DNA from: a virus
Length of the DNA stretch: 20,177 nt
Reading direction: 5' to 3' (one strand)
Virus record (IMG/VR): IMGVR_UViG_3300030430_001866
Span: 1-20,177 of that record
How positions within the stretch are numbered: position 1 is the stretch's first letter; every line of letters starts with the position of its first letter. Both the position numbers and the translations under genes were made by a program. The notes under the pieces are model-generated. The model made no database searches and was not told the origin of the DNA. It worked only from the letters and a program-made list of their open reading frames with translations. Below are positions 3,623 to 8,783 of this stretch, piece by piece.

Positions 3623-3869
3623 GATTTATTGGTTTTCTTTTTCTCATTTCAACTACAACACGATTAGCTTCTAATTCAATCAATCTATTTAATAACGCAG
3701 CCATAAATATATCTTGATCAAATTTTTTTCTAACAAGATGAGTGCAATATCTTTTTACATTATCTAAATCGTTACTCTGCATAATTTCTCTACATTGCAT
3801 TTCAATTTGAAGTTCCAACTCAGGAGGTGCTGGTTCTATATCTATGTTGAGAAATTTAGTTATTTTCAT
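3594..3869 (-). CDS. cyanophage-style hypothetical protein
   Basis: A 91-residue protein starting MKITKFLNIDIEPAPPEL, with a helical middle (QIEMQCREIMQSNDLDNVKR) and a basic C-terminus ending FFRIR. It reads opposite to its neighbours and converges with the gene ending at 3622. Its ATG shares a base with the stop of the small gene upstream (TAATG), so the two form a small operon. The sequence looks like small conserved proteins I associate with marine cyanophages. There is no motif that gives a function, no signal peptide and no membrane helix. Confidence 0.7.
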   Translation of the reverse strand: MKITKFLNIDIEPAPPELELQIEMQCREIMQSNDLDNVKRYCTHLVRKKFDQDIFMAALLNRLIELEANRVVVEMRKRKPINPIVKFFRIR

Positions 3870-4410: not shown

Positions 4411-4895
4411 AAAAGCTATTTTTACTTTTATTTCTTGCTGGTATTCCAGCTTCATATGCAGATATAAATCACAGTATTACATCAAGCGTACAGATTGAGG
4501 CGGTTTCTGCAGGTAGTACAGCAGATAAAATCGGTAGTTCCTACAGTATTTCAGGTAGCGGTATCACAACTGTAGATTCTGATGGTAATTCTACTATTGG
4601 AGGATTTGGCACAGTAACAGATGGTGTACCAGCATTAACAACAATTACAGCTTCTCAATCCAGTAGTGGAGATGCGTTTTCATTTTCTCAAAGTTATCTG
4701 GAAGGTGATGCAACACCAGCAGCAGCAGCTACCGTAGGTGAAATTCCCAACTTTTCAGATATAACATCTACTCAGGAAGCAAATATAGGTACTTCTGATA
4801 TTGGTTTAGATAATCATACAATCACCCTAACCCCTGGAACTGGTACAGGTGTTACGCTTACTGGATCGTTTGTTACTGATCTAACCATTGACTGA
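4407..4895 (+). CDS. exported Ser/Thr/Gly-rich protein
   Basis: A 162-residue protein with a textbook signal peptide: MKK, hydrophobic LFLLLFLAGIP, then ASYA with probable cleavage after A18. The mature part is rich in Ser, Thr and Gly and has no Cys. It contains IGSSYSISGSGI and, later, DAFSFSQSYLEG and EIPNFSDITS. This composition suits a beta-rich extracytoplasmic protein. I recognise the style as a recurrent cyanophage family of unknown function. It is followed at a TGATG junction by a second exported protein with related motifs (Y-S-(I/V)-(S/T)-G-S-G), so the two may share a fold or act together at the cell envelope. Confidence 0.75.
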   Translation: MKKLFLLLFLAGIPASYADINHSITSSVQIEAVSAGSTADKIGSSYSISGSGITTVDSDGNSTIGGFGTVTDGVPALTTITASQSSSGDAFSFSQSYLEGDATPAAAATVGEIPNFSDITSTQEANIGTSDIGLDNHTITLTPGTGTGVTLTGSFVTDLTID

Positions 4896-6059: not shown

Positions 6060-6093
6060 ATAAATAATATAAATTTGACATATAAATAATATA
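6060..6093 (+). repeat. 12-bp direct repeat ATAAATAATATA (x2)
   Basis: ATAAATAATATA occurs at 6060-6071 and 6082-6093, 22 bases apart (two helical turns), bracketing the TTGACA of the promoter at 6075. The phasing suits an operator for a dimeric regulator. AT-rich chance is the alternative. Confidence 0.4.
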
Positions 6094-6103
6094 TGTCTAA
6101 TAT
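6075..6103 (+). promoter_or_regulatory. candidate sigma70-type promoter for the 6156 operon
   Basis: A perfect TTGACA at 6075-6080, a 17-base spacer, and TAATAT at 6098-6103 (four of six consensus bases) predict transcription from about 6110. That leaves ATG 6093 upstream of the transcript start, supports ATG 6156 as the translation start, and gives a 5' leader of about 45 bases. Confidence 0.5.
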
Positions 6104-6110
6104 AAAAAAG

Positions 6111-6145
6111 TCCGTTAAGGATTTACACTTTCACTCCGTTAAGGA
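6111..6145 (+). repeat. 11-bp direct repeat TCCGTTAAGGA in the leader
   Basis: TCCGTTAAGGA occurs at 6111-6121 and 6135-6145, 24 bases apart. The second copy contains the AAGGA that is the only plausible ribosome-binding site for ATG 6156, ten bases later. The duplicate could be a decoy or a binding site for a translational or transcriptional regulator. Confidence 0.5.
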
Positions 6146-6155
6146 AACTTTTATT

Positions 6156-6791
6156 ATGGCACTTAACAGCTATCAAGTCACAGTTCGTGGAACTGCTGGA
6201 CTTCTTTGTTCAAATGTACAAAACTCTGATCCATTAGGTGAAGGAGCAAAACAAAAATCATTTTTCTCTAGTAAAAAAAAGAAAAACGATGAAGATCATC
6301 TTTGTCTTCGTGCGTTAGATTGGGTTTTTTCTGGATATTGGAAAAATCAAGGTAAGGTTAAAGTTAACGAAACTAAAAACTCTATCGAATTTGATGGATT
6401 TTCTGATCCATATATGCCAGGTGCTAACTTCTTGCGTTGTCTAAGAAACGCTGCTACCAAATGGAAGTTAGGTAAAGACGTTCTTCGTTCTGTTGTTGTT
6501 ACTAATGATCCATTAATCGAATATGAAGGATCAAAAGATGCTTTGGAAATGTACACTAAAGATCAAAGTTATTTTTCTAATACAGCATTTACATCAAGAG
6601 GTGTCTGGGTTCAAAGACTACTATTCCCAGATTGGAAATGTACTTTTGAACTAATGGTTGACGATGAGATATTAAGTGTATCTCAGCTAAATAGAATCAT
6701 TACTATGGCTGGAAAAGCTGAAGGATTAGGTACATGGAGGCCAAGATTTGGTAGATTTTCTGCATCTGAACTAGTGGAGATGGCTGACTAA
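6156..6791 (+). CDS. phage protein with RAMP/Cas7-like features
   Basis: A 211-residue protein from ATG 6156, with AAGGA at 6141-6145. ATG 6093 would add 21 residues but lies upstream of the predicted transcript start. Features: a beta strand VTVRGTAGLLCS (8-19), a Lys-rich loop with KSFFSSKKKKND (34-45), YMPGANFLRCLRNAA (86-100), RGVWVQRLLFPDW (148-160), and near the end AGKAEGLGTWRPRFGRF (185-201). This order is shared with a widespread phage family of unknown function ending in a GxGxWRP...FGxF signature. That signature resembles the glycine-rich loop of RAMP (Cas5/6/7-type) RNA-binding proteins. The fold is inference. It is co-transcribed with the basic gene at 6791 and directly precedes the stem-loop repeat array. 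Confidence 0.7.
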   Translation: MALNSYQVTVRGTAGLLCSNVQNSDPLGEGAKQKSFFSSKKKKNDEDHLCLRALDWVFSGYWKNQGKVKVNETKNSIEFDGFSDPYMPGANFLRCLRNAATKWKLGKDVLRSVVVTNDPLIEYEGSKDALEMYTKDQSYFSNTAFTSRGVWVQRLLFPDWKCTFELMVDDEILSVSQLNRIITMAGKAEGLGTWRPRFGRFSASELVEMAD

Positions 6792-7288
6792 TGACAGATA
6801 ATCCAAGAATAAGTGGTATCGATTGGCAAGGTCTACAGAAAGGAGATCTTGTACCACACGATCAAGTCAAAGAATTTTACTATAGCATTTTTCCAGACAG
6901 AGAATGGGATGATTTCAGCATGGTAAAAGTTATTGAAAAACTAATGAAACTGCGTGAAACAATCAATAGACCTCTAATTATTAAAGAGGTTTATAAAGAT
7001 CAATCTTTACGAGTACTTACTGATAAAGAAGGTGTAGATTATTCTGCACAACAGGCCAACGCTGGTATCAAAAAACATCGTAGACATACTCGTAGATTGT
7101 TTACTCACATCAATAAAGACAATCTAGATCCATCAAAACAACGTGAGTTGGAAACTAAACAAATTCATCATGCGTTCATAGCTTCTGCTGCTGATGGTGC
7201 TAGAAAAGAATCTTTGCAACTGCAAAGAAAAGGAGAAAGATTACCTAAGTCTTTGATCGAAAAATCAGAGTTTAAGAAATCTTCTTAA
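6791..7288 (+). CDS. basic hypothetical protein paired with the RAMP-like gene
   Basis: A 165-residue protein. Its ATG shares a base with the stop of the preceding gene (TAATG). The N-terminal half is acidic to neutral (SGIDWQGLQKGDLVPHDQVK, DREWDDFSMVKVIEKLMKL). The C-terminal half is strongly basic and helical (GIKKHRRHTRRLF, KQRELETKQIHHAF, RKESLQLQRKGERLPKS), as in nucleic-acid-binding proteins. No catalytic motif is recognised. Coupling with the RAMP-like gene suggests a complex or sequential action. Its stop is followed immediately by the gene-free structured repeat region. Confidence 0.65.
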   Translation: MTDNPRISGIDWQGLQKGDLVPHDQVKEFYYSIFPDREWDDFSMVKVIEKLMKLRETINRPLIIKEVYKDQSLRVLTDKEGVDYSAQQANAGIKKHRRHTRRLFTHINKDNLDPSKQRELETKQIHHAFIASAADGARKESLQLQRKGERLPKSLIEKSEFKKSS

Positions 7289-7387
7289 CGACTCCATTCA
7301 CATCTTATTATCGCACCTTCTGTCTTATCGTATCGCAGTTCCGTGGCTCCGCCCCACTCGATTCTCCGTAATTCCTCGTTTCAAGCC

Positions 7388-7451
7388 CTCGTTGTAAGTG
7401 TTACGATAAACTTTCCTTAACATCTCTATGACTTAACAGGTTTGCGAGATG
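7388..7451 (-). repeat. structured repeat unit 1 (two stem-loops)
   Basis: On the + strand, hairpin H1 pairs AAGT (7396-7399) with ACTT (7410-7413) around loop GTTACGATAA. Hairpin H2 pairs CATCTC (7421-7426) with GAGATG (7446-7451) around the 19-base loop TATGACTTAACAGGTTTGC. CTCGTTGT precedes H1. Confidence 0.7.
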
Positions 7452-7570
7452 ATCACGTTTCTTTTCGATTAGCCGTAACTCTCTGTGGCTCACTGTCGAT
7501 CAACTTTCAGCTTCCATCATGCTGCTTATTGTCACTCGTTGTGCTTCTTCTCTATTTGCCTCAAATCAAA

Positions 7571-7632
7571 CGTTATGAGTGCTACGACAAACTCTTCTTA
7601 ACATCTTTGATACTTAATAGGTTGACAAGATG
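7571..7632 (-). repeat. structured repeat unit 2 (two stem-loops)
   Basis: H1 pairs GAGT (7577-7580) with ACTC (7591-7594) around GCTACGACAA. H2 pairs CATCTT (7602-7607) with AAGATG (7627-7632) around a 19-base loop containing ACTTAATAGGTT. Both stems differ from unit 1 on both sides, so pairing is kept. Confidence 0.7.
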
Positions 7633-7750
7633 ACTACAGTTACCCTCACCTCGTTGTGATTCCGCTTATGTCAATTCCCATCCTCTTAGCTTGATTCCAC
7701 TCAAATTACTGCCACTCGCTACATTTCTTTTCGACTTATGTCAATTCAAT

Positions 7751-7813
7751 CGTTGTCAGTTTACGATTAAAACTGTCCTTAACACTTCTATGACTTAATA
7801 GGTTTGCGAAGTG
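7751..7813 (-). repeat. structured repeat unit 3 (two stem-loops)
   Basis: H1 pairs CAGTTT (7757-7762) with AAACTG (7770-7775) around ACGATTA. H2 pairs CACTTC (7783-7788) with GAAGTG (7808-7813) around TATGACTTAATAGGTTTGC, nearly identical to the unit 1 loop although the stem has changed. Confidence 0.7.
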
Positions 7814-7982
7814 ATTACAACCCATAGTTTCTCGTTGTCATTCGACTCAGAGTCACTTCTAACATCGTATTTCAATCGCCTTGCGTTTTATCTCGTTACA
7901 TCTCGGCTTTTGGCAAATCAACTTTATTTCCCGTGAATCTTATCAACTTGAATCTGCCCGCTTCAGCTTATTACTATTCCAT

Positions 7983-8042
7983 CGTTTAAGGTGTTACGTT
8001 AAACCTTTTTAACACCTCTAGGATTTAATCGTCTACGAGGTG
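7983..8042 (-). repeat. structured repeat unit 4 (two stem-loops)
   Basis: H1 pairs AAGGT (7988-7992) with ACCTT (8003-8007) around GTTACGTTAA. H2 pairs CACCTC (8013-8018) with GAGGTG (8037-8042) around an 18-base loop that is the most diverged of the four (GGATTTAATCGTC core). Confidence 0.7.
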
Positions 8043-8136
8043 AAAATCGCCTCAACGTGCGTATCGTGGCTCCATGTTCCTCGTGACGATTCGTATTCAT
8101 TCGACTAACTTTACCGCTATTTTTTTCAAATCAATC

Positions 8137-8165
8137 GCTTACCAGTTCTACGATTAAGAACTGGT
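8137..8165 (-). repeat. structured repeat unit 5 (H1 only)
   Basis: A perfect nine-base stem pairs ACCAGTTCT (8141-8149) with AGAACTGGT (8157-8165) around ACGATTA, the same loop as unit 3. No H2 follows. It overlaps the last four codons of the minus-strand gene ending at 8154 and would be the first unit in a leftward transcript. Confidence 0.65.
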
Positions 8166-8178
8166 TTCCTTTTTCTTT
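8141..8178 (+). terminator. possible + strand terminator formed by repeat unit 5
   Basis: Read on the + strand, the nine-base stem at 8141-8165 is followed by a T-rich tract (TTCCTTTTTCTTT). It could stop rightward transcripts from the 6156 operon before they enter the minus-strand block. The tract is interrupted by C, so termination strength is uncertain. Confidence 0.35.
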
Positions 8179-8783
8179 GTTAGTTTCTTAATTACATTTT
8201 TAACTATTGGTTTTACTAAATTAAGAATGATCGGAGCAGAACAGCCGACCAGAGCAAGACTAAAAACCCCAGTAAACTGCTTAAAACTTGGAATGTATTG
8301 GGAGATGAACGGTACGTCTTCATACAAAGTGATACATTCTATCCCATTTGTACCACGTTCATAGCCAATAACACGTTCCAGCTTTTTATCGTTACGAAAA
8401 TCCCCGATTTTTTGCTCTTTTTTACCAGGACAGGGTAGTATTTCTAGTTTTTTATCTTTTTTCTTTTGTGGTATCTGAAGCTTTTGCTGTGGAAGTTGCG
8501 GTTGTTGTTGCTCCTGTTGCTTTGCAGGTGCAGTATACTGAAAGTCAGCAGGATTATATTCAAGTGGTTCATAGCTAGGGATATTAAACGTACCACAAGC
8601 TTTATATGTACCTAGTTCATCTTCATTTATAAGTCCTGTCAGATTATTTCTATGAGCATCAACACATCCTGGAATATCTACAACTGGCTTAGTAATTAAA
8701 TCTAATATTGGTGGTTGTACCTCCCATGTTCTTATTTTTGGAACGTAAACTTCTTTTATTTCAATCTTTGGTATCTTCGTCAT
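8154..8783 (-). CDS. membrane-anchored hypothetical protein with Gln/Pro linker
   Basis: A 209-residue protein. The N-terminal domain (MTKIPKIEIKEVYVPKIRTW, then VVDIPGCVDAHRNN with C40 and further Cys at 63) is followed by YEPLEYNPADFQYTAP, a Gln/Pro/Lys-rich linker (88-112), a second small domain with ERVIGYERGTNGIECITLYE, and a C-terminal transmembrane helix at about 171-191, with a Lys-rich cytoplasmic-type tail. GGAG lies six bases before ATG 8783, inside the overlapping upstream gene (23-base overlap). I recognise the DIPGC...YNP style from marine cyanophages, function unknown. It is the last protein gene of the leftward block, and its 3' end lies in repeat unit 5. Confidence 0.7.
   Translation of the reverse strand: MTKIPKIEIKEVYVPKIRTWEVQPPILDLITKPVVDIPGCVDAHRNNLTGLINEDELGTYKACGTFNIPSYEPLEYNPADFQYTAPAKQQEQQQPQLPQQKLQIPQKKKDKKLEILPCPGKKEQKIGDFRNDKKLERVIGYERGTNGIECITLYEDVPFISQYIPSFKQFTGVFSLALVGCSAPIILNLVKPIVKNVIKKLTKKKETSS

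Follow-up and report, generated by a model that had tools for sequence, protein, structure and literature searches.

Genes and features of the locus

The window analysed here is the whole of the 20,177-base viral record IMGVR_UViG_3300030430_001866, which comes from a marine cyanophage-like tailed phage. Its + strand early operon, with exonuclease, RusA-like and Erf-like genes, stops at 7288, and the late operon, convergent with it, finishes at 8154; between them lie ~870 bases that are gene-free according to the open reading frames (ORFs), as an earlier reading of the bare sequence (the original prediction) had stated. At this locus we recognise, with high confidence, a VIPR (Viral Interference Programmable Repeat) system made up of vipr, a vap-like gene, a five-guide vrRNA array and a terminator. 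In the main text of a 2026 preprint, VIPR combines a RAMP-family protein (Vipr), an accessory vap and vrRNAs (PMC13142463). Our assignment draws directly on the gene family and protein fold, the periodicity and register of the pentamers, covariation in the tails, the diversity and turnover of the guides, and locus layout.

Covarying hairpin tails

Four units at 7388-8043 each contain two hairpins, H1 and H2, and all the H1 and H2 stems quoted in the original prediction were found in the sequence. The arms of H2 read CATCTC (7421-7426) and GAGATG (7446-7451) in the first unit, CATCTT and AAGATG (7627-7632) in the second, CACTTC (7783-7788) and GAAGTG (7808-7813) in the third, and CACCTC (8013-8018) and GAGGTG (8037-8042) in the fourth. 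The predicted tandem two-hairpin array thus holds for four units and fails for the fifth, which has H1 (ACCAGTTCT/AGAACTGGT, 8141-8165), no H2 and then a T-run, and is a terminator. The core of the repeat, spaced at 181 nt, has three pattern matches in the window against 0.00 expected, and the tails are 67-78% alike.

Covariation was assessed on 35 distinct homologous tails, with 500 shuffles and slid arms as controls. Doubly changed cells numbered 104, compared to 34.1 in shuffled sets (0/500) and 16-22 with the arms slid; this count is not corrected for the sequence tree, and the slid-arm controls retain relatedness. H2 is 98.6% paired with five of its six pairs doubly changed, double changes occur in five of the seven pairs of H1, and the apical stem within the H2 loop also covaries. 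The prediction of a structured RNA array under selection is therefore borne out: the two arms change together in homologues, where free change of one arm would have spoken against it. Together with the ATCG before it, H1 probably forms part of an H-type pseudoknot, whose helix ATCGT/ACGAT is 88.6% paired and nearly invariant. Folded singly, the units have mostly ordinary energies (z -0.4 to -2.6; the terminator unit reaches -3.3), so the evidence for structure is covariation, not stability. Some tails combine an H1 of the type found in the related locus L046 with a window-type H2, indicating that tail modules recombine.

Phase-locked pentamers between the hairpins

The DNA between the hairpins, treated as featureless in the original prediction, in fact consists of ~90-165 nt of phase-locked pentamers, the guide sequences. 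These spacers are tandem pentamers of the form NN-Y-K-Y, mostly NNYTC, in fixed register with each hairpin. When 57 spacers are pooled (5,547 nt), TC dinucleotides repeat at lags of 5, 10, 15, 20, 25 and 30 nt (z ~15-18) and are depleted at every other lag; in the window spacers alone, TC pairs number 18, 22 and 18 at lags 5, 10 and 15 versus 3-9 elsewhere. In a scan of the window, such phase-locked stretches were confined to the + strand and to the segment between 7271 and ~7790. In the position weight matrix from the Viterbi fit, positions 1 and 2 are free, position 3 is C (.39), T (.42) or A (.15), position 4 is T (.71) or G (.21), and position 5 is C (.69) or T (.28) with G at.001. Each tail opens with NATCG, to which the pentamer phase is locked, and the pattern persists from the tail back to ~20 pentamers. 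We rejected a minus-strand reading (GARNN), under which the tails would be 5' and the terminator on the wrong strand.

The Vipr protein and its neighbour

The longest ORF opens at 6093, although homologues start at MALNSYQV, which corresponds to 6156; the extension (6093-6155) is disordered in the model and missing from many homologues. Judging from this comparison, translation probably starts at 6156. The protein falls in phrog_4652 (E 1.8e-32), as does the experimentally studied Vipr of Escherichia phage SUSP1, which we place at ORF 28474-29061 (E 1.4e-96; record KT454805, where we assigned vipr and vap1 from size, order, family and repeats). Direct alignment of the two with hhalign gave E 7e-24 and 30% identity, with the motifs SDPL, KRKKTDED and WRPRFGRF in common, and tblastn matched Vipr to Felixounavirus proteins (E ~1e-12). 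The AlphaFold model (predicted local distance difference test score 83.8) has the G-loop RAMP/RRM fold with a conserved G-x-G-x-W-R-P-R-x-G-R-F motif; its top PDB matches in Foldseek were Csm3 (the best, E 1.6e-5), the Cas7 proteins of types IV (Csf2) and VII, and gRAMP, and the closest named viral match was a 'Cas system-associated RAMP superfamily protein' (E 2.2e-5). All six array-bearing records that were searched whole contain phrog_4652, which was not found in the array-less MED4-184 and AG-345-A17. By analogy with the VIPR relatives studied so far, this RAMP protein would bind RNAs of the kind encoded beside it.

The vap-like gene overlaps the vipr stop codon. Relatives were found at 51 loci, or 60 with alignment. 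Its structure model is of low confidence, with an N-terminal helix-helix-hairpin, and a structural search with this weak model returned no significant PDB match.

Table 1. Features of the VIPR locus (positions in the window)
Feature	Position	Strand	Basis
vipr gene (RAMP-fold protein, 211 aa)	6156..6791	+	phrog_4652, structure model, start by homologue comparison
vap-like accessory gene (165 aa)	6791..7288	+	relatives; position as vap1 in SUSP1
Guide 1, ~18 pentamers	7290..7379	+	Viterbi segmentation; YKY in phase 0.58 vs 0.34 shuffled, p 0.0016
Tail 1: CTCG.., H1 7396-7413, H2 7421-7451	7388..7452	+	sequence, repeats, covariation
Guide 2, in-phase stretches 7457-7511 and 7518-7567 with phase slip; possibly degraded	7457..7567	+	Viterbi; single-phase p 0.11, not significant alone
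Tail 2	7569..7633	+	sequence, repeats, covariation
Guide 3, 21 pentamers	7643..7747	+	Viterbi; p 0.0002; guide group common to L006, L027, L029
Tail 3: H1 CAGTTT/AAACTG, H2 CACTTC/GAAGTG	7749..7814	+	sequence, repeats, folding, covariation
Guide 4, stretches 7829-7873 and 7875-7979	7829..7979	+	Viterbi; p 0.02
Tail 4	7981..8043	+	sequence, folding, covariation
Guide 5, 15 pentamers	8058..8132	+	Viterbi; p 0.0002
Last tail: AATCG, H1 (8141-8165), T-run; intrinsic terminator	8133..8178	+	terminator scan; fold z -3.33
Candidate promoter TTGACA-17-TAATAT upstream of vipr	6075..6103	+	consensus match only

The array terminator overlaps the 3' end of the convergent gene at 8154-8783. Promoter-like consensus matches in the window are no more numerous than in shuffles. 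Protein relatives are the only pointer to the likely host: homologues of the gene at 8154-8783 come exclusively from Synechococcus, Prochlorococcus, cyanophage or marine virus records (95 records). Searches for tRNA and tmRNA, and a similarity search of cultured phage records, gave nothing.

Comparison with known systems

The main text of the preprint describes vrRNAs in which 9-16 YNNGG repeats lead into a structured 3' tail, pseudoknotted in the SUSP1 clade, and a target-reading rule that skips 1 nt; it names six kinds of vap, a minimal locus of vipr, vap and flanking vrRNA regions, and seven types using GGY/NN 'or a related consensus (fig. S17)', and it proposes VIPR, characterised in two clades (SUSP1 and Pseudomonas fulva), as the ancestor of CRISPR effectors (PMC13142463). 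The window and SUSP1 (type II) both show this minimal layout, and they share a RAMP-fold Vipr of one family, the gene order of vipr, a small second gene in the position of vap1 and a downstream array, and pentamers in which two positions are free and three fixed, the SUSP1 repeats reading NNGGT. Their tails agree in topology: GTAG-TTA-GTCTCA-G-CTAC-ATTAAAA-TGAGAC in SUSP1 and ATCGT-x-CAGTTT-ACGAT-TA-AAACTG in the window both fit an H-type pseudoknot topology, and in the window an invariable structured 3' tail, with covarying H1 and H2, follows each tract. In contrast to SUSP1, the tails here add the second covarying hairpin H2, guides mostly have 12-22 pentamers rather than 9-16, and arrays reach ~8 guides.

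With C/T at position 3, T/G at position 4 and C/T at position 5, the window pentamers lack the GGY/NN motif of type II, and we do not file the locus under that type; they agree with the VIPR repeat in general only as a related consensus. The Vipr of Gordonia phage MakoManhole is 35% identical to that of the window and its repeats are GGY-like, so lineages within a single protein family use different triplets. The YTC-like motif may already be among the types in fig. S17 of the preprint, our comparison being with its main text. We suggest only tentatively, as a possibility rather short of even, that an unlisted VIPR type exists in these marine cyanophage-like viruses, with a YTC-like triplet, long multi-guide arrays, and guides and tail modules shuffled between phages, in which the triplet is exchangeable and the NN code persistent.

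The array also recalls Class 1 CRISPR-Cas (Csm3/Cas7) in its RAMP fold and its variable guides divided by structured repeats, but there is no cas operon among the ORFs, direct repeats are not identical and the guides are periodic with fixed triplets. A CRISPR array was rejected on the divergence of the tails and the lack of that operon.

Guide diversity and information content

Relatives gathered through ORF 6791-7288 (51 loci), the DNA pattern and an alignment search yielded ~50 related marine contigs with 2-8 guides each, and the guides fall into 129 groups; where the downstream sequence is long enough, nearly all relatives show a gene-free stretch of 2-8 units. Many guides are common to several phages and diverge like ordinary DNA, with differences per site between homologous guides of 0.17 at NN, 0.26 at position 3 and 0.15 at positions 4 and 5. 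Others are replaced outright: the single-guide loci L127 and L128 (~4490-4570) share 99.75% identity across the 400 bases ahead of the guide and agree in 62/62 tail positions, and their guides are entirely different. The fixed positions at these two loci look like K-C-Y rather than Y-T-C.

The composition of the NN dinucleotides correlates with that of the first two codon positions in phage genes (r 0.87; 0.02-0.46 for other frames). A wobble-skipping step of three gives a Kullback-Leibler divergence of 0.056-0.067 bits, versus 0.104-0.106 for steps of 2, 4 and 5, although no step model fits the composition within sampling noise; agreement with the published 1-nt skip lends weak, indirect support to that rule here.

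All guides were compared with the fetched loci; they did no better than shuffled guides at skips of 0-2 and re-found only the arrays themselves at a skip of 3. Targets were likewise absent from the whole contigs of five relatives and MED4-184, gapped patterns from four guide cores gave none or chance-level matches only in 2.9 million viral contigs, and two guide-decoded peptides had no tblastn match. Three guide groups decoding to similar peptides were dropped as a sign of a shared target, being related as DNA.

Weighing the interpretation

Several observations weigh against a VIPR assignment. The fixed triplet is Y-K-Y (mostly YTC) in the window and GGY in SUSP1; the vap-like protein is not demonstrably homologous to SUSP1 Vap1 (hhalign E 0.0097, probability 4%); covariation is mute on the pseudoknot, whose helix is nearly invariant; guides 2 and 4 carry phase slips; and the sequences searched yielded no target for any guide. 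Few guides were searched at depth, so this last absence is not evidence against targeting. The absence of targets, together with the many shared guides that diverge as ordinary DNA, would suit a VIPR relative whose array is an RNA scaffold or decoy, with Vipr coating pentamer RNA and NN carrying no information. We regard this as improbable, since NN change less than the partly free position 3 between homologous guides, and resemble codon positions 1-2 with the three-step rule nearest (0.056 vs 0.10 for other step rules), and since the guide is wholly different between L127 and L128 amid constant surroundings.

We give scarcely any credence to a structured RNA array without guides, whether of GOLLD/ROOL type, a packaging RNA, stabilisers in a 3' untranslated region or a rut-like C-rich terminator region. 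Its appeal lies in a large gene-free region, C-rich and G-poor, with repeated covarying hairpins between convergent operons, and the original prediction had noted a size similar to that of GOLLD and ROOL; Rfam, however, returned no match at E<=1 and only chance-level ones at E<=10, the guide-tail organisation differs from these RNAs, and the strict 5-nt period, the tail register and the constant Vipr-family neighbour would be left unexplained. A double- or single-stranded DNA element (an iteron-like origin, integrase/attP arms or a terminase site) is just as hard to credit. The array does adjoin a convergent integrase-like gene in L034 and L035, recognised by motif only with no Pfam match, but repeats set 5.0 nt apart lose helical phase over 20 copies, the + strand structure of the tails has recurrent U-G pairs, and the array closes with a + strand terminator. 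The hairpin-based origin or packaging array offered in the original prediction is superfluous. Other candidates (a Rho rut-like region, TRAP-like NAG repeats, integron attC, an iteron origin and packaging RNA) are unnecessary given the strict 5-nt period and the adjoining Vipr.

Related loci in other phages

A pattern of seven YTCNN pentamers, run on the 2.9 million viral contigs, found three unrelated phages by the pentamers alone. Each tract adjoins a Vipr-like gene, which pointed to the protein; that of L237 belongs to phrog_4652 (E 2.1e-8), and those of L241 and L242 were recognised by alignment to window ORF 6093-6791. The tracts lie on the minus strand on both sides of 6756-7343 in L237, at 7829-8588 in L241 and at 13410-13789 in L242. 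Read on the vipr strand they are NNCTC, GARNN and GGANN, respectively, so orientation or motif differs between lineages.

In MakoManhole (L289, 2885-3140) the guides are of GGY type and the tails carry GGTGGGGTTCGACTCCCCACC, which is tRNA T-arm-like. In phage wV8 (L290), 58-nt direct repeats annotated by the depositors as DR_4 (2262-2319 and 3655-3712) flank a vipr-like gene; we take them as probable vrRNA tails, deposited as repeats without an explanation. Many tails of a sister clade (L046, L049, L086, L088, L091-L094) consist of H1, then a T-run, then TGTCTTAGC, an arrangement that looks like a separate terminator for every guide RNA; in L046 and L047, CTTAGC is also found ahead of the first guide. 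On the minus strand of L035 (5863-7080) a convergent 405-aa protein has integrase-like C-terminal motifs, and L034 is alike, which suggests temperate relatives. A host search of a bacterial collection of 84,980 genomes found no relatives of Vipr or of the L035 protein.

Proposed mechanism and implications

From homology to SUSP1 VIPR, we postulate that transcription of the array, as part of the operon or by itself, is followed by cutting into vrRNA units, each comprising ~15-21 pentamers (NN free, Y-K-Y constrained) and a structured 3' tail with H1 and H2. Vipr subunits would polymerise on the guide, one pentamer per subunit, gripping the fixed triplet as Cas7 thumbs do, and the NN pairs would jointly read double-stranded DNA with one base skipped per pair. 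The bound complex may then repress competing phages or satellites. All of this, from expression and processing through the binding of RNA by Vipr to the target code and a role against competitors, is modelled on the SUSP1 work.

Our assignment extends the range of VIPR to ocean viruses with >100 distinct guides and means that the constrained triplet is not tied to GGY. The arrays provide a natural library for learning which sea phages fight each other.
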